A DNA stretch of 64,000 nucleotides, taken from assembly GCF_026676115.1 (NCBI RefSeq), contig NZ_JAPONB010000003.1, positions 248,001 through 312,000 on the forward strand. Direction: 5' to 3'. Below are positions 55,364 through 64,000 of this stretch, in pieces; the stretch's first letter is position 1, and every line of letters begins with the position of its first letter. The notes under the pieces were generated by a model. It saw only the letters and a program-made list of their open reading frames with translations, ran no database searches and was not told where the DNA came from. The translations under genes were made by a program, and so were the position numbers. Origin of the DNA: Salinimicrobium sp. TH3. Lineage in GTDB: Bacteria; Bacteroidota; Bacteroidia; Flavobacteriales; Flavobacteriaceae.

Positions 55364-56362
55364 ATGGGAAATAAATTACTATTACTAATTACCAAAAATG
55401 GAGATCTAGCCGATAATCTTGAAAAAGAAGTCAACTGCTCCTTTAGTACTTCTCAAGTTAATAGTATTCATGCCGGCTATTCTATAGCTCTTAATATGCT
55501 TCCCGATATTATCCTGGTAGATTATTCTTCTCTGGGGCTTGAAAGTCTTAAAAACCTCAGCAATTTTAAATCATCACATTTTCTTAATAAGAGTTTTCTT
55601 TTTCTTTTAGGTGACCAGGAAAATAAGAGATTTCTAGATCAAAATTTTAAAGATACGGTGGATGAAATTATCTATGACAAAGGTTGTTATCGTTCTATTG
55701 TAAAAGAGATAGAAGAAGCAGTTAAAATAAGGGGTTGCCTTACAAATTACTGGAAAGATTCTTTTATGGGACTTTTTAACCTGCTGGAATATCCGGTAAT
55801 ACTCTTACAGGATGAAAAAGTCGTGGCCATGAATGATACCTTTAGAAAGGATTTTTTTATTACCGGGAAACAAGAAATTAACCTTACAGATCTGGTGGTT
55901 GAAAGAAATAAGAGTAAGGTTAAAGAGACCCTCAGAAAATTTCATAGGGGCAAACACATGAAAGCTACAACTAAAACTTCTCTTATTATGAATGAAAAAA
56001 TAAGGGAAGCTAAAATAACTTTTTCAAAACTTGATAAAAATCTTTGTGGACAAATGATCATGATGATCAATTTCACCGGGAATGATTTTCCTCTTAAAGA
56101 AGAAGTAGGGTCTAATTCTCCCGAGACAGAAAAGTATTTTTCCACCTACTGTAATCAGGAAGAGCAGTATTTTACAAAGAGGGAAAAGGAAATTATTGCT
56201 TTACTATGTAAAGGTTATAAAACCAAAGAAATTTCTGAGGCTTTGTGCATTTCTGCAAAGACGATTGAGAAACACCGGGCCAACATAATACGCCGCACAC
56301 ATTCAGGTACTATATTAGAAAGTATAATTTATGCTCTTAACCATAAAATGATAGAAATTTAA
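55364..56362 (+). CDS. Receiver-PAS-LuxR transcriptional regulator
   Basis: A 332-residue cytoplasmic regulator. Residues about 3-110 resemble a response-regulator receiver with a candidate phospho-acceptor D53 in IILVDYSS, but the usual acidic pair near residue 10 is not evident. Residues about 125-240 look like a PAS-type sensor. The C-terminal LuxR helix-turn-helix starts near 269 (YFTKREKEIIALLCKGYKTK; SAKTIEKHR). No histidine kinase is adjacent, so it is an orphan. It lies directly upstream of the lipoprotein array with G/C-tract motifs on both sides, and could be its regulator. Confidence 0.85.
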   Translation: MGNKLLLLITKNGDLADNLEKEVNCSFSTSQVNSIHAGYSIALNMLPDIILVDYSSLGLESLKNLSNFKSSHFLNKSFLFLLGDQENKRFLDQNFKDTVDEIIYDKGCYRSIVKEIEEAVKIRGCLTNYWKDSFMGLFNLLEYPVILLQDEKVVAMNDTFRKDFFITGKQEINLTDLVVERNKSKVKETLRKFHRGKHMKATTKTSLIMNEKIREAKITFSKLDKNLCGQMIMMINFTGNDFPLKEEVGSNSPETEKYFSTYCNQEEQYFTKREKEIIALLCKGYKTKEISEALCISAKTIEKHRANIIRRTHSGTILESIIYALNHKMIEI

Positions 56363-56432
56363 ATAAAAGTAGGGTTTTCCCCCATTGCTTTAGGTTCAGA
56401 TAAATCCTACATTTAACAGGAATTCTGTTAAC

Positions 56433-56455
56433 ACTCCCCCCCCGTTACTCCCCCC
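56433..56455 (+). promoter_or_regulatory. Tandem ACTCCCCCC motifs before the first array lipoprotein
   Basis: ACTCCCCCCCC at 56433-56443 and GTTACTCCCCCC at 56444-56455 stand 79 bp before the start codon in an otherwise A/T-rich gap. The second is repeated exactly at 63485-63496 before the fourth paralogue, and a reverse-oriented GTAGGGGGG precedes the regulator gene. They may be binding sites for one regulator. Confidence 0.45.
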
Positions 56456-56533
56456 TTTATAATTAAGCAAGTTCATACTTGAGACTATATTTATTAACCA
56501 TTCTAATTTTCATTAATCAAAAACCTTTTAATT

Positions 56534-58207
56534 ATGAAACACATTAAATTATCAATGGCATGGCTGGCTGTGCTGGCATTAATCTTTACTTCGTGTAGTA
56601 AAGAAGAGTCTGATCCTGTTCCAGGAGATCAGGAAAGGATAGAAATAACTTTTGGTTCCCTCCTGAACGATTTTAATAATCAAAATAAACAGGCAGAACC
56701 AGGAGCATGTATTGAAGGAACGCCCGGTTATGTGCTGGTAGGAATTACAGAAGGAGATGATCCTGACAGCGTAGATTATATAGACGATGGAGATCCAGGT
56801 GATGGTGACGATTTAATCCAGGTAGATCTTAAAAATAATGGAGGGAATTGGGAAACCGAATATTCTGATCTATTAGCTTTACCTGCCGGTGATTATCACC
56901 TTCAGCATTTTATAGTTTATTCAGAAGATAATCAGGTTCTGTGGGTTGCGCCCAGAGTGGGAGGAGCATTCGAGGAATATGTAGATAATCCTTTGCCACA
57001 GCTTATTTCACTTGCAGCCGGAACTAAGCCTTACATTTCTGTAGATGTATTGTGCTTTATTCCCAGAAGTGAAGAAGCTTATGGTTATCCTTTCTTTGAT
57101 TTTGATGTTATAGAAGTTGAAAACAGCTACTGTATATTCGTGAATTATTGCTGGGATGAAACTGGTCGTGACTATCCTGCTCATTTCCAGGTAGAAGTTT
57201 GGAGAGATGCTTATGGAGGTAGTGATGAAGTTGTCTTTACTACTTACATGAATACTGTAGATACTTCGGGTGACTGGCCTGCAGCATCTGTTCTATGTTT
57301 ACCATTCCCAGATCTTGGAGATGACACCTATTACGTAAGAGTAACTCTACTTGATTATGAGGGAGCTTACGAATTGGATCCAGAAGAAGATTATATCATC
57401 CAATTCCCTATAACTCAGGCTGACATTGACGCTCAGGAAGGAATGACTCCAGCTTATACCCACATTAGGTATAATTGTGAGCCTGTAGCTGATTGTCCAC
57501 CAAATTACCCAGTAGGAGATACTAATCAAGATTGTAGAGTAACATGTGATGATACTAATACCTGTCCTGATGATCCATGTCCAGGTATAGACCCTGCTAC
57601 AGATCCTGATGGTGATTGTATTCCAGACGATACCGACAATTGCCCAGATGTATATAATCCAGACCAGGCAAACAGAGATGGTGATGCCTTTGGAGATGCA
57701 TGTGACCTATGCCCCGATGTGGCAAGTGAAGAAAATGTGGATTGCCCTCTAATTCCTGGTAATGACTGTGATACAGCATATATGTTTGGTGATGTAATGC
57801 TAAACACTCTTGATTATCCAGGAAATAACTGGGGCTGGGGTCTTTTAGTTGACGGTGAAGGTGTAGATGTAGATCCAGAATATCTAGTAGATGCCGGTGT
57901 TTGGGTAATACCATTCTACGCAGGTGCTGCTCAAAATGATATCACCAAAGGCTGGAGAGCTGGAGATGTGAGAATTGAAGTAATTGGAGATGACATTGAA
58001 ATCACAATTGAACCTTACGATTACGTGACAGTAGAAGAAACTCACTTTTGGTTCAATGATGATGGGGCCTGGCCAGAAAAGCGCTCACCTGGATCTTTTG
58101 ACTTAGGCGACGGTGGATTAAGCTACACCATGGAAAATGTCGATGGTACTCTACCTTACTCTGTAATAGTTCATGCTAAGGTATGTGATTCTCGAAATGA
58201 TGACTAA
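56534..58207 (+). CDS. Array lipoprotein 1, with thrombospondin type 3-like region
   Basis: A 557-residue lipoprotein. The signal ends in IFTSC; SKEE after the cysteine fits the Bacteroidota surface-export signal, so outer-surface exposure is likely. Residues about 28-318 are the module shared with the next two proteins, including YGYPFFDFDVIEVENSYC at 183-200. Residues about 325-395 are Asp/Cys-rich with DPDGDCIPDDTDNCPD and NRDGDAFGDACDLCPD, calcium-binding thrombospondin type 3-like repeats. The last about 150 residues form a beta-rich domain unlike those of its paralogues. Function unknown; cell-surface binding or adhesion would fit the repeats. Confidence 0.85.
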   Translation: MKHIKLSMAWLAVLALIFTSCSKEESDPVPGDQERIEITFGSLLNDFNNQNKQAEPGACIEGTPGYVLVGITEGDDPDSVDYIDDGDPGDGDDLIQVDLKNNGGNWETEYSDLLALPAGDYHLQHFIVYSEDNQVLWVAPRVGGAFEEYVDNPLPQLISLAAGTKPYISVDVLCFIPRSEEAYGYPFFDFDVIEVENSYCIFVNYCWDETGRDYPAHFQVEVWRDAYGGSDEVVFTTYMNTVDTSGDWPAASVLCLPFPDLGDDTYYVRVTLLDYEGAYELDPEEDYIIQFPITQADIDAQEGMTPAYTHIRYNCEPVADCPPNYPVGDTNQDCRVTCDDTNTCPDDPCPGIDPATDPDGDCIPDDTDNCPDVYNPDQANRDGDAFGDACDLCPDVASEENVDCPLIPGNDCDTAYMFGDVMLNTLDYPGNNWGWGLLVDGEGVDVDPEYLVDAGVWVIPFYAGAAQNDITKGWRAGDVRIEVIGDDIEITIEPYDYVTVEETHFWFNDDGAWPEKRSPGSFDLGDGGLSYTMENVDGTLPYSVIVHAKVCDSRNDD

Positions 58208-58213
58208 TAAAAA

Positions 58214-58245
58214 ACCGCCCCGGTGATTTACCGGGGCGGTAATAA
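58214..58245 (+). terminator. Intrinsic terminator after array lipoprotein 1
   Basis: ACCGCCCCGG and CCGGGGCGGT form a 10-bp perfect stem with a 7-base loop just after the stop codon. The following bases are A-rich rather than a T tract, so termination strength is uncertain. Confidence 0.7.
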
Positions 58246-58301
58246 AAAAATAATCAAGTATTTATTAACCATTCTAATTATTAATTAAAATTCAATTTAT
58301 T

Positions 58302-59621
58302 ATGAAAAAATTTAAATTTTCAATTGCCTGGTTGGCAGTTTTTGCGATGATCTTTACCTCGTGTAGTAAAGAGGAAGCTGGAGTAATCTCTGATGATCCT
58401 GAAACAGTACAATTAACTTTTGGTGCACTGTTAAACTCTTTTAATCAACAAAACAAACAGGCAAGTTACGAATGTGATTCAGAGGCGGTACCTGCATATG
58501 TTATGTTAGGATGGTCTACAGAAGAAGATGCTGGAATGGACGATTATGATCTTATTCAGGTTGATCTTGTCAACAACAATGGATCCTGGGAAACAGTTTA
58601 TTCTGAAGATTTAGCCGTTCCCGCAGGCACTTATTATCTACAACATTTTGCAGTCTATGACGCAAGTGATGCTGTTCTTTGGGTAGCTCCACGTGAAGGA
58701 GGGGCTTTTGCCGCTGAGGTAGATGATCCTCTTCCTTTGACAATAGAATTGGCAGCTGGAACAAAACCTTATATTGATGTTGATGTCCTATGTTATTTTG
58801 CCAGAGAAGAAGTAGCCTATGGTTATCCTTTCTTTGATTTTGATGTTATAGAAGTTGAAAATAGCTATTGTGTATTCGTTAATTACTGTGACCTTGTTGG
58901 TGAAGGTGCTACAGGAAGAGAGTATCCAGCTCATTTTAGACTTGATATCTGGTCTGATGGATTTGGAGGTTCTGATCTTATAACTACTGGAATGAATGAA
59001 GTTGATATGACCGGCGACTGGCCAGCTGCTTCAGTACTTTGTGTTGCTTTACCTGAAATTGTAGGAGAAGATCTTTATGCAAGAGTAACCGTTTTAGATG
59101 ATGGACAGGCATATACTCCTGAAGCTGGAGATGTTCATGAATTCAGAATTTCTCAGGCTGATCTGGATGATATTGAAGCTGGAACTCCAGCTTACCAACA
59201 TTTCAGAATTGGTTGTGATGGAGATACTCCTCCTCCAACAGGATGCATCCCTGCACCAGTAGATGGATGTGTGACTTTATCCTTTGCTGAAACCGTTAGT
59301 ATTGAAGGTTTCCCAGTTAATACTGATCCATTCTATCCACTAATGTATAATGGTGAAGAAGTAGGAGTAATAACCTTTGATCTTGAGGCTGCCGGAGCTT
59401 ATAGCATGGATGCTTCTATTGATCTCTATGAAGGTTGGACTGCGACTGATGTTGAAATCTCTTTACCCGATTTTGTTAATACAGATATCTGTGTTCAGAA
59501 TATAGATGAGAACGATTTCCTTGTGACTTATATGGTCGATGAGAATGTGGTTGTTGATGGAATTAACTTCCCCGTGGCTGTAGAGTTTGATGCAAACATC
59601 TGTTTTAATGATTTGGACTAA
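58302..59621 (+). CDS. Array lipoprotein 2
   Basis: A 439-residue lipoprotein with signal IFTSC followed by SKEE. Residues about 28-308 repeat the shared module (WVAPREGGAF; YGYPFFDFDVIEVENSYC at 173-190; WPAASVLC; QADLDDIEAGTPAY). The last about 125 residues, from CIPAPVDGCVTLSF, are a separate beta-rich domain not seen in the other copies. The 5' flank shares TATTTATTAACCATTCTAAT with lipoprotein 1, showing that the duplication included the leader. Its N-terminal 100 residues are very close to the partial fourth copy. Function unknown. Confidence 0.85.
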   Translation: MKKFKFSIAWLAVFAMIFTSCSKEEAGVISDDPETVQLTFGALLNSFNQQNKQASYECDSEAVPAYVMLGWSTEEDAGMDDYDLIQVDLVNNNGSWETVYSEDLAVPAGTYYLQHFAVYDASDAVLWVAPREGGAFAAEVDDPLPLTIELAAGTKPYIDVDVLCYFAREEVAYGYPFFDFDVIEVENSYCVFVNYCDLVGEGATGREYPAHFRLDIWSDGFGGSDLITTGMNEVDMTGDWPAASVLCVALPEIVGEDLYARVTVLDDGQAYTPEAGDVHEFRISQADLDDIEAGTPAYQHFRIGCDGDTPPPTGCIPAPVDGCVTLSFAETVSIEGFPVNTDPFYPLMYNGEEVGVITFDLEAAGAYSMDASIDLYEGWTATDVEISLPDFVNTDICVQNIDENDFLVTYMVDENVVVDGINFPVAVEFDANICFNDLD

Positions 59622-59656
59622 TATTTAAAAGTTCTTATTAAACAGTTTAGAATTAT

Positions 59657-59686
59657 GAAAGCCGTTTGCGTTAGTAGACGGCTTTC
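59657..59686 (+). terminator. Hairpin between array lipoproteins 2 and 3
   Basis: GAAAGCCGT and ACGGCTTTC form a 9-bp perfect stem with a 12-base loop, 35 bp past the stop. No T tract follows, so it may be a weak terminator or a 3' stabiliser. Confidence 0.5.
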
Positions 59687-59762
59687 AATATCAACGTGTA
59701 GTTGAAATGCTATTTTTTAAGCCAAATTCTTATCAACTAACTTATTTTTAAAACAATCTATT

Positions 59763-61115
59763 ATGAAAAAGATTAGATACTTAATATTTTCAATGTTTGC
59801 TCTTACATTGATATTTACTTCTTGTAGTACAGAAGAAACAAAAGTTAATACTGATGATTCTGAAACAGTACAAGTAACATTTGGAGCTTTGCTTAATTCG
59901 TTTAATGAACAGAATAAACAGGCAGATGCTGAATGTAGAGATGGTGTAGAACCAGCTTATGTTATGCTGGGTGGATCTACTAACATGAATGCTCCAATGG
60001 GTTCTTATGACCTTTATAAGGTAGACCTTGTCAATAACAACGGATCATGGGAGACTACTTATTCTGAAGATCTGGCCCTTCCTGCCGGTACTTATTATCT
60101 GCTGCATTTTGCAGTATATGATGCAAGCGACCAGGTGCTATGGGTAGCTCCACGCGAAGGAGGAGCCTTTGAAACAGAAGTAGACGATGCACTTCCACTT
60201 AGAGTTGATCTTGTGGCCGGAACCAAGCCGTACATTAATGTTGATGTTTTATGTTATTATGCCAGGGAAGAAGCAGCTTATGGATATCCTTTCTTTGACT
60301 TTGATGTTATTGAAGTGGAAAACAGCTACTGTATATTCGTTAATTACTGTGATGATGGTACCGGGCGTGAATATCCGGCATACTTTCAGGTTGAAGTTTG
60401 GTCAGATGAGTATGATGGTACACCTGTAGTGTTATCCAATAATACAAACACTATTACTCAAGCAACCACAGGTTGGCCGGCAGCTTCTGTACTTTGCATT
60501 GCACTGCCAGATTTAGGTGACGATACTTACTATGCCAGAGTAACTGTACTCAACCATCCTGACCTTGACTATACTGCTGATCCTTCAGACGTTCATCAGT
60601 TCACATTTACTCAAGCCGATATTGATGGTCAGGAGCTATTTATCCCTGCCTATAACCATATTAGAATCAATTGTGGAGGAGGTCCAGGTGATATTTGTGA
60701 TACAAATGTGAGATGCGAACTTAATCTAGAAAATCCTTTAAGTGAAAATTGTAAGTTTACTTACCTTGAAGATTCTGAAGAAGGTTGGGTAAGAATTGAT
60801 AGCGCGACAGATATCGATCTTTTAGCTTTAATAGGAACAGATGAAGTTGAGTTAGGTGCTGTAGATGCATCTTTGATCAATACTGACGAGATTAGGCTGA
60901 TTTTAGATACTCCTTATGGAGATAGCGATAGAATATCGGCTTACGCAGTAGAGGTAAGGCCAAATTCAGGAGGCGCAATCAATACGACCTGTTGGGAAAC
61001 TCAGTGTGCAAACGTTGTGAATGACTATGGCGAAATTTCCATGACTTTTGATGGCTTCAATTATTCATATCCGTTTTTTATAAAAGTAGAAACGATTAAC
61101 TGTTACGATCTGTAG
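59763..61115 (+). CDS. Array lipoprotein 3
   Basis: A 450-residue lipoprotein (signal ending IFTSC, then STEETK). The shared module spans about 28-315 and retains WVAPREGGAF, YGYPFFDFDVIEVENSYC (173-190), WPAASVLC and QADIDGQ. The last about 130 residues, from CDTNVRCELNLENP, are a distinct Cys-containing domain (TTCWETQCANVVND). It ends with its own terminator. Function unknown. Confidence 0.85.
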   Translation: MKKIRYLIFSMFALTLIFTSCSTEETKVNTDDSETVQVTFGALLNSFNEQNKQADAECRDGVEPAYVMLGGSTNMNAPMGSYDLYKVDLVNNNGSWETTYSEDLALPAGTYYLLHFAVYDASDQVLWVAPREGGAFETEVDDALPLRVDLVAGTKPYINVDVLCYYAREEAAYGYPFFDFDVIEVENSYCIFVNYCDDGTGREYPAYFQVEVWSDEYDGTPVVLSNNTNTITQATTGWPAASVLCIALPDLGDDTYYARVTVLNHPDLDYTADPSDVHQFTFTQADIDGQELFIPAYNHIRINCGGGPGDICDTNVRCELNLENPLSENCKFTYLEDSEEGWVRIDSATDIDLLALIGTDEVELGAVDASLINTDEIRLILDTPYGDSDRISAYAVEVRPNSGGAINTTCWETQCANVVNDYGEISMTFDGFNYSYPFFIKVETINCYDL

Positions 61116-61138
61116 ATTTATTCTATAAAAAAACAGGG

Positions 61139-61168
61139 AAAGGGCAACTTGAAAGTTGCCCTTTTTTT
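61139..61168 (+). terminator. Intrinsic terminator after array lipoprotein 3
   Basis: AAAGGGCAACTT and AAGTTGCCCTTT form a 12-bp perfect stem with a 2-base loop in front of a T tract. Confidence 0.9.
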
Positions 61169-62097
61169 ATTCCTGGAAGACAAATACTCCGAAGCGTGCT
61201 TCTTTAACAAATACTTTAGAATTTGAAAAATGTATTAGAAAAACTTACTAAGGCCGGGGAGAAAAAATGGTATTGTTCGAATTGCAGTATAAAAGGACAG
61301 CTTTATAAATTTATATTATTTGTTAGTGTACAGAATAATTATTGTCTTATTTATAATTACAGTGCTAAATAAGAGTGGTTTAGGAAGAAAGTATCTCTTA
61401 AAAATTCATTTCCAGGGAAAAGGGGCCCGGTAAATTCAACTTTTTTTCCTTTGAAGAATGTCAGTATTTACCATTTACCACAAATAGCAAATACAATAAT
61501 TACAATCATGGTTCTTTACTCTTGCACAAAATAAAATGAACTTTTTCGGGTATCATATGAACCTTAGATTCAATTTTCATTACGTCGAAACTTAATATTG
61601 CTGGCGCAATAAGCCATTAATTTAAAATAGTTGGCTCTACTAATGACTATAGTTTTTTAATTTTTATTGTTAAGGCTTTAAGACCAATAATTTCCAACCA
61701 TACTTCTTTCGTAGGAAATTTCCTATATAATTAAAATTCAGAGTGTTAAAGTTTATTAAACATATCTTAAAAGAATTAAAATTTTTATTTTTACCCATGT
61801 AAGATCTGATCAGGTTCTCAAGTTTTAAAACAAATATTAACGCTAAACAATTTGAAAAAACAATAAAAAAAATCTCTACGCTCTTATTTCGAATTTCCTT
61901 AAATAGTTAAATTACTATTTAACCTTTTTTTGGCATAGTTATTACAAGGTGTAAAAGCATCATATGATATTAAGATTTTATTTTGTTTTTAAAAACATTG
62001 TATTTAACTAAAACCTTACGCTATCAAAACACTAAAAAAAATGAGTAACACTAGAATTCCCAAAGTTCAATTGTTACACAAAACAGAAAACCTACTT
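61169..62097. other. Long A/T-rich region without genes
   Basis: About 930 bp of very A/T-rich sequence with no convincing gene, RNA structure or promoter box. A frame opens at 62041 in front of the astacin gene but would bury its lipoprotein signal. The base composition is lower in G+C than the flanking genes, which may mark foreign or decayed DNA. Confidence 0.5.
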
Positions 62098-63147
62098 ATG
62101 AAAAAATTAAAATTCGCTTATATACTTCCTGCAATTGCTTTATTTGCATCCTGTGCAAAGGATAATCCGAACGACCTGGATGAGCTGAATGGAACCGATT
62201 CTTCCATTGAAACCTCTAGTGAGGAAATGGTAGAAGTTGCCAGTCCAGAGCCAGGTCCGGTAACAGAAGTGTATTACGCTGGACACAAAATACCTGTTGA
62301 AGAATTTAACGGAAATTATGTTTATCAGGGAGATATCATACTCTCTCCTGACATGGTTACCCAGGAAGAAGTAAAAATGGTCTACGAGAAAGATGAAGTG
62401 CCATCTGGTAATAAGAGCGTTGGAAGAACATCAGGAAGATGGCCTGACAATACCGTCTATTATTCTATTGAGAGTGGACTTGATAATAAATCGAGAGTCT
62501 ATGAGGCTATTGACCACTGGGAGGCAAATACCAACCTAAAATTTGTTGAAAGAACCTCTCAATCCAGCTACATCTATTTTGTAACCGGTTCAGGTTGTTC
62601 TTCATATGTAGGCAGAGTAGGGGGAAGGCAGAATATTACCTTATCGTCCTCTTGTTCTACAGGAAATACCATTCATGAAATAGGCCATGCTGTTGGTCTT
62701 TGGCATGAACAAAGTCGTGTGGATAGAGATAACTACATTACTATTCACTACGATAACATTCAGAGTGGAAGAGAATTCAACTTTCACACTTATTCTGCAC
62801 AAGGTATGGATGGAGACGAGTTTACCAGTACACTTGACTTTGGGTCCATCATGATGTATGGAGCCTATTCTTTCTCAAATAACGGTAAGCCTACTATTAC
62901 TACAAAAAATGGGGGTACTTATTCTGTTCAAAGATCCAGGTTATCAACTGGAGACAAAACAGGGATCAATAATATGTATCCTTACCAGGGTGGGGAAACA
63001 ACGACGACCCCTGAAACCTATGTGAATGGAGAGTACTATACTATTGAAGGATTAACAGTGCTAAGGTTTTACAATGGATGGTATTATCTTGGGCCGTATG
63101 GTATGAGAGCAGTTGAGCTTAGAAACGGAATTTGGTATTACAAATAG
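62098..63147 (+). CDS. Astacin-family (M12A) metalloprotease lipoprotein
   Basis: A 349-residue secreted protease with lipobox FASC (C19) followed by AKDNPND, compatible with surface export. After a propeptide-like stretch (about 20-110) comes the catalytic domain with the full zinc motif HEIGHAVGLWHE at 193-204, which gives three His ligands and the catalytic Glu, and a Met-turn in SIMMYG (M253). Residues after about 300 form an extra C-terminal part ending RNGIWYYK. The ATG at 62098 is chosen over 62041. It interrupts the lipoprotein array between copies 3 and 4. Its substrate is unknown; the neighbouring lipoproteins are possible targets. Confidence 0.92.
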   Translation: MKKLKFAYILPAIALFASCAKDNPNDLDELNGTDSSIETSSEEMVEVASPEPGPVTEVYYAGHKIPVEEFNGNYVYQGDIILSPDMVTQEEVKMVYEKDEVPSGNKSVGRTSGRWPDNTVYYSIESGLDNKSRVYEAIDHWEANTNLKFVERTSQSSYIYFVTGSGCSSYVGRVGGRQNITLSSSCSTGNTIHEIGHAVGLWHEQSRVDRDNYITIHYDNIQSGREFNFHTYSAQGMDGDEFTSTLDFGSIMMYGAYSFSNNGKPTITTKNGGTYSVQRSRLSTGDKTGINNMYPYQGGETTTTPETYVNGEYYTIEGLTVLRFYNGWYYLGPYGMRAVELRNGIWYYK

Positions 63148-63163
63148 AGAAAACATTTAGATA

Positions 63164-63198
63164 CAAAAAAAAACCCGGCTAATTAGCCGGGTTTTTTT
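63164..63198 (+). terminator. Intrinsic terminator after the astacin gene
   Basis: AAACCCGGCT-AATT-AGCCGGGTTT forms a 10-bp perfect stem extended by A/T pairs and followed by a T tract. Confidence 0.92.
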
Positions 63199-63672
63199 GT
63201 ATCTGGTTATCTATATCATTAATTTTCTGCTCGTTTTTTCCTCTTTAGAAGGTTTCATTTTAGTAATTAGTGTGAATTAATTCTACATTTTTGAGGGTGC
63301 GGTTGTGGAAATTTTCTACTTTACTCAAAGACTTTTTTGAAATTGAAAAGAGCGGAGGTTATTCTAAATTAATTTTCAGCTGTACTTTTCGATAAGTAGG
63401 GAATTCCCTTATTGTGTTGACTGTCAATTTCATATATATTTACTTTGTTAGTTGCAACAAATATTTTGTAACTACTACTCGCTTGTTACTCCCCCCGGCA
63501 AAGAATTAAATGTTGATTTATTCCATACTATGGTTATGGATTGTCTAGTATCCTATAGAGTTAAATCAAAATTATTCTTTTTCAGACGAAAAATGTGCAT
63601 GATGCCATGCTTCGTCAGTTACCCTTCTATGAAAACCAGAAACATGTATTTATTAACCAAAACCATTAAATT
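63199..63672. other. Intergenic region before array lipoprotein 4
   Basis: About 470 bp without a supported gene. It holds GTTACTCCCCCC at 63485-63496, an exact match to the motif before lipoprotein 1, and TGTATTTATTAACCA shortly before the start codon, which resembles the leader of lipoproteins 1 and 2. A 74-codon frame at 63452-63676 runs through these elements and is not credible. Confidence 0.5.
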
Positions 63673-64000
63673 ATGAAAAATTTAAAAACTTCCATTGCCT
63701 GGCTGGCCATGTTTGCATTGATTTTTACCTCGTGTAGTAAAGAGGAAACAGGAGTGATTTCTAATGACCCCGAAACTGTCCAAATTACTTTTGGCGCACT
63801 GTTAAACTCCTTTAATCAACAAAATAAACAGGCAGTTTATGAATGCGATGCGGAGGCAGTACCTGCTTATGTAATGTTAGGATGGTCTACCGAAGAAGAT
63901 GCTGGAATGGACGATTATGATCTTATTCAGGTAGATCTTGTTAACAACAATGGATCCTGGGAAACAGTTTATTCCGAAGACCTAGCCGCTCCTGCAGGAA
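63673..64000 (+). CDS. Array lipoprotein 4 (3' end beyond window)
   Basis: The first 109 codons are visible. The signal (IAWLAMFALIFTSC) is followed by SKEE, and the sequence continues with VISNDPETVQITFGALLNSF and WSTEEDAGMDDYDLIQVDL, nearly identical to lipoprotein 2. The identity extends to the nucleotide level over long stretches, pointing to a recent duplication or gene conversion. The C-terminal module lies outside the window. Confidence 0.9.
   Translation, partial: MKNLKTSIAWLAMFALIFTSCSKEETGVISNDPETVQITFGALLNSFNQQNKQAVYECDAEAVPAYVMLGWSTEEDAGMDDYDLIQVDLVNNNGSWETVYSEDLAAPAG

Follow-up and report, generated by a model that had tools for sequence, protein, structure and literature searches.

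Near its end, the window analysed here, a stretch of 64,000 nucleotides from Salinimicrobium sp. TH3 (positions 248001-312000 of contig C15 in genome G000, which measures 3.69 Mb), carries an array of four paralogous genes for lipoproteins that share an N-terminal module and differ in the C-terminal end that follows it. These proteins constitute a real, conserved and lineage-restricted modular family. Sequence comparisons suggest, with a probability of about 0.58, that they represent a lineage-specific surface-display platform independent of the type IX secretion system (T9SS), with exchangeable ends that probably serve for binding. In such a platform, the lipid would fix the module to the outer face of the outer membrane, and the module would act as a stalk that keeps the end at a distance from the membrane. 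Most ends would bind (a glycan, a metal, a protein or matrix) and not catalyse, and the paralogues would exchange stalk sequence by gene conversion. An upstream LuxR-type regulator would control the array, an astacin protease would act on or with the displayed proteins, and the platform would need no type IX sorting domain, though the genome also has T9SS cargo.

The open reading frames (ORFs) reported in an earlier reading of this DNA from its letters alone (the original prediction) are all present on the forward strand (55364-56362, 56534-58207, 58302-59621, 59763-61115, 62041-63147 and from 63673). The first encodes the regulator and the fifth the astacin; the others are copies 1 to 4 of the module gene. 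Copy 1 (56534-58207, 557 amino acids) consists of the module (56597-57481, residues 22-316, delimited by profile match and structure model), a linker with thrombospondin type 3 (TSP3)-like repeats and an end of sequence cluster 0 (CL0; 57698-58204), a domain also present in T9SS proteins of other genera. In copy 2 (58302-59621) the module (58365-59222) is followed by a CL2 end (59223-59618), and in copy 3 (59763-61115) the module (59826-60677) is followed by a CL3 end (60678-61112). The residues after the module number 241, 132 and 145 in copies 1, 2 and 3, respectively. The window holds only the start of copy 4 (63673-64000), which is whole in the genome (G000:C15:311673-313490, 605 amino acids) and carries a CL6 (GATase/DUF4350-like) end. 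Two further module copies are located on contigs C14 and C18.

The shared module

According to the profile match, the module of copies 1-3 extends from residue 22 to residues 305-316 and measures 284-295 residues (about 310 in the original prediction); the sharing of signal, SCSKEE/STEE export motif and module by the four paralogues stands. Alignment of 53 modules reveals 26 invariant columns, including Cys 37, 169, 175, 226 and 284, and Cys 143 is conserved in at least 90% of them. The module of copies 1-3 reaches no Pfam or NCBIfam cut-off. DUF4458 (PF14660) is matched by 13 of the 53 modules at E ≤0.1 (best 2.2e-4); copy 1 (11.8 bits) and copy 3 (19.6 bits) miss its gathering cut-off of 22.4 bits and copy 2 is unlisted, while a distant relative in locus L170 scores 22.7 bits. 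A profile search of the module against the PDB gave a best E of 0.013.

AlphaFold2 models of copies 1 and 2 (mean predicted local distance difference test values of 75.6 and 70.9; in copy 2, mostly 80-96 in the module blocks and 30-61 in the end blocks) confidently predict a module of two beta domains. Domain 1 resembles residues 36-160 of 4ecn, the structure of the leucine-rich repeat (LRR) protein BT_0210 from Bacteroides thetaiotaomicron (in the two models, 101 and 99 residues align at Z 10.1 and 9.9, respectively, and a root-mean-square deviation (rmsd) of 2.4), and the rows after 4ecn reach only Z 7.4 and 7.7. Foldseek also returns 4ecn as the top row for the copy 2 model (E 2.6e-7). We take DUF4458 to be the family covering the N-terminal part of this structure. 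Profile matches also place part of domain 1 before LRR or receptor-L repeats in three distant proteins (L177, L178 and L179). The N-terminal domain of BT_0210 has the same domain 1 fold, but in the family described here domain 1 is followed by a second domain and by diverse ends. The module was not recognised in the original prediction, which would have been refuted by its match to a well-described domain with known function; the match to BT_0210 is one of the domain 1 fold only and to a relative without an attached function.

Domain 2 is weakly similar to pilin CnaB, hydroxyisourate-hydrolase and transthyretin folds (Z about 7), a level at which the match may reflect merely a common arrangement. 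Such similarities raise the alternative of a pilus-like or fibrous structure, in which the stalk would polymerise or cap, module-only proteins would form the shaft or base, the ends would be tip adhesins and the astacin would process them. The resemblance of domain 2 to the CnaB domain of SpaA pilin (Z 6.7-7.7) is consistent with it, as is that of the two domains taken together to cell-adhesion proteins of Bacteroides, for example 4h40 (Z 7.0 and 6.7, rmsd 16.8 and 8.3), and the arrays include a protease gene as well as, in several genomes, genes for module-only proteins. However, those Z values fall in the range common for the tool. Over the set of 4h40, 3liu, 3gf8 and 4qdg, the comparison of both domains gives Z 5.4-7.0 and rmsd 3.2-16.8. 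The NCBIfam model fim_Mfa1 matches only residues 2-71, the signal region, at E about 0.02, no fimbrillin family appears among the Pfam matches of the 53 modules, and no usher- or chaperone-like neighbour was seen by eye in G000. A fibrous structure is considered rather improbable.

Export signal and proposed display route

All four copies have a lipoprotein signal with the export motif SCSKEE, except that copy 3 has SCSTEE. In total, 170 distinct members of the family were collected, of which 164 were examined for this motif after exclusion of six with a truncated module start. Six of the 164 have no locatable cysteine; among the other 158, C-x-(K/R/Q)-(D/E)2 is found in 137, and an acidic pair lies nearby in 15 more. 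The experimentally defined optimum for surface export in Capnocytophaga is C-X-K-(D/E)2-X (PMC5080379). The module proteins show the lipobox cysteine and the acidic motif of Bacteroidetes surface lipoproteins with a lipoprotein export signal, and are probably located on the outer surface.

The end of copy 1 connects this family with a different route to the surface. Among 199 family genomes from 198 genera, an evenly drawn sample that does not include every genus, the CL0 domain was found in 42 genomes and 41 genera, in frames of up to 3823 residues, and the cluster 4 end domain in one genome. Five of six CL0 proteins from five other genera match the T9SS type A sorting domain TIGR04183 after CL0, four of them above the cut-off. 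TIGR04183 is unlisted for copies 1-4 and for the copies on C14 and C18, and G000 itself has 14 T9SS sorting-domain matches, 13 above the cut-off, none of them in the module proteins tested. Since CL0 precedes TIGR04183 elsewhere and follows the module here, a single domain is found both on T9SS cargo and on a lipoprotein module. T9SS-sorted surface proteins of Flavobacteriaceae therefore share this domain with the module proteins, but the former use C-terminal TIGR04183, whereas the latter use a lipoprotein signal and the module.

A constant anchor with a variable end is a known idea; the module, the locus and the contrast of routes are unnamed in the Pfam and NCBIfam models searched. Among the paper titles listed, none describes them, which does not show that no such paper exists. 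If the proposed platform is correct, Flavobacteriaceae would possess a second, lipid-anchored route for a domain that their relatives display by type IX secretion, so that one end could be studied on either route. A common plan would then apply to many surface proteins of common marine genera that are so far unannotated, each end would become a separate ligand question, and the module would offer a natural scaffold for surface display.

The layout also recalls SusE-like surface lipoproteins, which, according to PMC8211771, have a lipid anchor, a beta-domain stalk and a distal functional end, features common to the module proteins. This comparison underlies another alternative, nutrient capture, in which the array would encode surface lipoproteins that bind glycans or metabolites and supply them to a transporter. 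The three-part, lipid-anchored beta-domain architecture of SusE-like proteins with a distal binding end (PMC8211771) favours it. Against it, inspection by eye of the genes flanking the array in G000, which were not profile-searched, revealed no SusC/SusD-like ORF. A further difference from SusE-like proteins is that one module here carries about 15 groups of ends. Nutrient capture is considered a rather improbable explanation.

Polymorphic toxin systems (PMC3482391) likewise combine a constant N-terminal with a diverse C-terminal part. Here, by contrast, no immunity-like small genes are visible by eye between array members and the ends look extracellular; a polymorphic toxin array was rejected on the lack of such genes and on the finding that one end is a widespread secretome domain.

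Diversity of the C-terminal ends

Seven of the 170 members lack a complete module end or the C-terminus, leaving 163, of which 16 are module-only proteins with fewer than 30 residues after the module. These 16 and three ends shorter than 60 residues after an ad hoc trimming of the linker were dropped, and the ends of the remaining 144 members fall into 24 sequence clusters. Comparison of cluster profiles with hhalign, whose single-pair E-values are not database E-values, joins ten of 276 cluster pairs at 80% or more, reducing the clusters to about 15 groups. The largest linkage comprises clusters 0, 2, 3, 14, 15, 17, 20, 21 and 22 (77 members); clusters 7 and 9 are joined separately.

The three complete copies in the window had been thought to end in unrelated domains, and homology among these ends was named as a refutation of the original prediction. 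The claim is overturned by this comparison, in which the copy 1 and copy 2 clusters pair at 94.9%, the copy 2 and copy 3 clusters at 96.4%, and those of copies 1 and 3 directly at only 31.6%. Because copies 1, 2 and 3 lie in the linked clusters 0, 2 and 3, their ends are distant homologues, the link between clusters 0 and 3 being indirect. Judged by their profiles, the ends of copies 1-3 belong to one divergent superfamily and the copy 4 end (cluster 6) stands apart.

This homology speaks for ordinary tandem paralogues whose C-termini have simply drifted, with neither platform nor exchange, and the largely conserved order of the array points in the same direction. Against drift stand unrelated ends on the same module and the change of end at array position 4 described below, as well as the sharp borders in some DNA pairs and the opposite dS contrasts between module and end, and such an origin is considered quite improbable.

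The CL6 end of copy 4 resembles ABC_transp_aux (E 7.5e-7) and DUF4350 (E 2e-5), both below cut-off, and the copy 3 end matches DUF4382 at E 9.1e-5, its 23.2 bits falling short of the cut-off of 25. TSP3-like repeats stand between stalk and end in many members. Those predicted in copy 1 are supported by TSP3-bearing NCBIfam families, which match residues 355-427, and by the similarity of model residues 334-385 to thrombospondin-1 (Z 7.2, rmsd 1.2, 52 residues aligned); Pfam TSP_3 itself is unlisted for copy 1 and is matched in the relatives L046 (E 2.2e-49) and L055 (E 7.7e-8). Since the model of the copy 2 end is poor and the copy 1 end was barely tested in the structure comparison, no fold is claimed for either. 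Searched against the PDB, the CL1, CL4 and CL0 ends gave best E-values of 0.38, 0.0095 and 0.48, respectively.

Other ends have recognisable features. Among 22 aligned ends of cluster 1 (27 members), three His are invariant, with weak matches to Cu/Zn superoxide dismutase in three and to CHRD in one. Cluster 4 (nine members) shows an invariant DSSGS that by eye resembles the metal site of von Willebrand A domains, for which Pfam makes no call, and cluster 16 combines TSP3 repeats with three PPC stretches. Clusters 7 and 9 are propellers: L052 passes the Pfam GSDH cut-off, and its closest PDB matches are hedgehog-interacting protein (E 4.7e-37) and then quinoprotein glucose dehydrogenase (E 3.3e-19). 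The haloperoxidase-like ends, which define cluster 8 and include L050:4024-5232 (of that cluster) and L060:4089-5360, bear on the effector function originally attributed to the ends. Aligned with 4cit, L050 has VIA in place of SGH and GLNY in place of GIHY, so that haloperoxidase site residues are lost; L060 retains at least PSSH, and the later His lies outside the alignments obtained. SGH and the later His are presumably the vanadate-site residues of vanadium haloperoxidase.

As to the module-only proteins, the DNA of L063:3327-4349 is for the most part 82-97% alike to that of L054:3185-4663, and the L063 frame ends just past the module. This likeness, together with the L063 stop, indicates that a stop codon is one way in which module-only proteins can originate.

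Probable exchange of ends

At array position 4, between the astacin gene and a gene resembling an acyl carrier protein (ACP) phosphodiesterase, the end differs between close species: G000 and G005 have a CL6 end and G004, G009 and G010 have an unrelated CL4 end. On a module tree of 163 rows, a quick tree with long-branch warnings in which module-only and unclustered proteins were scored as classes, end class needs 62 changes, compared with a minimum of 24 and an average of 114.6 for shuffled labels. On this tree the ends appear partly inherited and often changed.

Ten chosen pairs were compared at the DNA level, seven of them with different ends. The paralogues of Gillisia mitskevichiae in L073 show 94-100% identity per 90 bases across most of the module and 32-61% beyond it, and identity also falls at the module border in the between-species pairs copy 4/L040 and L041/L040. 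The same-end control, copy 2 of G000 and G005, shows no drop. The surface-directed module with exchangeable ends of the original prediction is supported by the unrelated ends borne by one module, the change at position 4 and some DNA borders. Its effector ends are not supported; among the enzyme-like ends, that of L050 has lost its site residues.

Divergence at synonymous sites (dS) differs between the parts of these genes. Between G000 and G005, the modules of copies 2-4 have dS of 0.17-0.32, while the copy 1 module has 0.68 and its end 54% identity; at position 4 of G004 and G010, module dS is 1.62 versus 0.47 for the end. For 12 chosen syntenic pairs, 23 comparisons were made, and divergence at nonsynonymous sites (dN) is lower than dS in every one, that of a module-only gene among them (dN 0.072, dS 0.868). 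Diversifying selection on the ends was rejected on this result.

No stretch of at least 40 shared bases occurs in the ends of 106 within-locus pairs. In different-locus controls, two of 400 pairs reach at least 40 bases, L039/L069 (one gene fetched twice) and L131/L126 (whose end is cut by a contig end). We infer from these data, together with the identical stretches within modules counted below, that gene conversion probably takes place between paralogue stalks, which would keep the stalks alike while the ends diverge or are replaced.

Several observations weigh against the display platform with exchangeable ends. The 16 module-only proteins among 163 imply that an end is not always needed; some of the variety has arisen by divergence, since the commonest ends form one divergent superfamily, and the module tree shows end class to be inherited in part. 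The propeller ends may be enzymatically active. Nor are the DNA borders sharp in every pair: in L072, L042 and copies 2 and 4 of G000, identity already declines before the module ends, within its second half, and in L049/L059 it drops only past the linker. Recent exchange of module sequence is seen in few pairs: at least 40 identical module bases occur in eight of 132 within-locus pairs (six of 36 loci), and the requirement of two clustered, different ends leaves five of 100 pairs (four of 32 loci). Duplication with loss could mimic some replacements, and 4ecn is absent among Foldseek's best 50 rows for the copy 1 model.

Genetic context and proposed regulation

The regulator (55364-56362, forward strand) is a LuxR-type protein (Pfam GerE, E 2.4e-12) with a PAS-like middle and a receiver-like N-terminus. 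It had been described as an orphan, whereas it proves to be a conserved neighbour of the array, lying on the same strand at most 600 bases upstream in 32 of 37 runs of at least two module genes. Of the other five runs, L109 has the regulator about 1.07 kb upstream and four have only up to 669 bases of upstream sequence; in L072 the regulator match is split across two frames. All 28 regulator homologues match GerE, 11 match PAS_8, 10 match PAS_9 and one matches VpsT-like_REC, and Asp53 is invariant, which leaves the receiver-PAS-LuxR label plausible. VpsT and CsgD are biofilm regulators.

A more elaborate version of the display platform would treat the module as a stalk into which, in one lineage of marine flavobacteria, extracellular domains from the pool displayed by relatives through T9SS are plugged, with stalks kept alike by conversion, turnover of ends, module-only proteins as partners or spacers, and a VpsT/CsgD-like matrix regulator acting via the leader element described below; as a whole it is a tentative proposal, on the unlikely side.

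The presence of an astacin protease (M12A; 62041-63147, forward strand) in the array is confirmed (Pfam Astacin, E 4.3e-49). If its start is at 62098, a lipoprotein-type signal is visible by eye. Its closest NCBIfam model is LegP, and since its score of 231 bits is below the cut-off of 300, it is not called a LegP member. In 33 of the 37 runs the astacin gene shares the strand of the module genes; the available sequence of the other four stops no more than 467 bases past the last module gene. Many runs are flanked by uvrA and an ACP-phosphodiesterase-like gene (names assigned by eye). Antigenic variation from silent cassettes was also rejected: the gap at 61116-62040 holds no ORF of at least 100 amino acids, although end fragments were not searched there.

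Distribution

The module is matched in 10 of the 12 genus genomes, and the two without a match are 74 and 75% complete. The regulator, three or four module genes and the astacin are present in all ten genus genomes at least 90% complete; the astacin lies within the array in five of them and after it in the other five. The closest genus genome is G005, with a copy 2 that is 97% identical. In the family sample, the module occurs in four of 199 genomes (three of 198 genera), one match being weak (E 1e-6), and in the order six of 296 genomes match, G000 included; tandem sets also occur there in a different family (L168, L169).

A scan of named genomes kept 80 of 126 relatives in 71 loci, from Salinimicrobium, Gillisia, Salegentibacter, Christiangramia/Gramella, a Flavobacteriaceae metagenome-assembled genome (MAG) and a MAG labelled Methanohalobium. 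The contig of the latter (L131), with a Salegentibacter-like module array, is most likely a binning error.

Leader element

A short conserved element precedes many of the module genes. In the window, TATTTATTAACCATTCTAA is found as an exact match on the forward strand 5' of copy 1 (56488-56506) and of copy 2 (58259-58277). Its 16-base core, TTATTAACCATTCTAA, occurs before the start codon exactly in 39 of 167 members and with at most three mismatches in 95, with 70 of these 95 sites at -44 to -38. Of the 167 member leaders, 54% contain its 8-mer AACCATTC, which is absent from all 111 background leaders. G000 has three exact elements, those of copies 1 and 2 and one upstream of an M3-like peptidase gene; with two mismatches allowed it has 10 sites versus 7 for a reversed control, hardly an excess. 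Because the family scan found 17 sites against 9 in the control, lone sites there mean little. At the level of RNA, L007 gave nothing at the gathering level of Rfam, six leader-element loci gave one match (E 0.33), below the gathering score, and an RNA fold of the M3-like peptidase element revealed only a terminator-like hairpin upstream.

The peptidase-site element (L180:1501-1516, that is, G000:C1:35529-35544) is flanked by a purE-like gene, which has a terminator-like hairpin, and by the M3-peptidase-like gene. Of the 12 genus genomes 11 have it, as do three family genomes from other genera (L216, L218 and L225), two of which are without module matches in the family survey. In G002, the element precedes a gene that by eye has curlin-like repeats (L191:1501-1516). 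Finally, the element is found in tandem, about 17-20 bases apart, in L059, L049 and L040, for example at L059:9826-9864 on the reverse strand.

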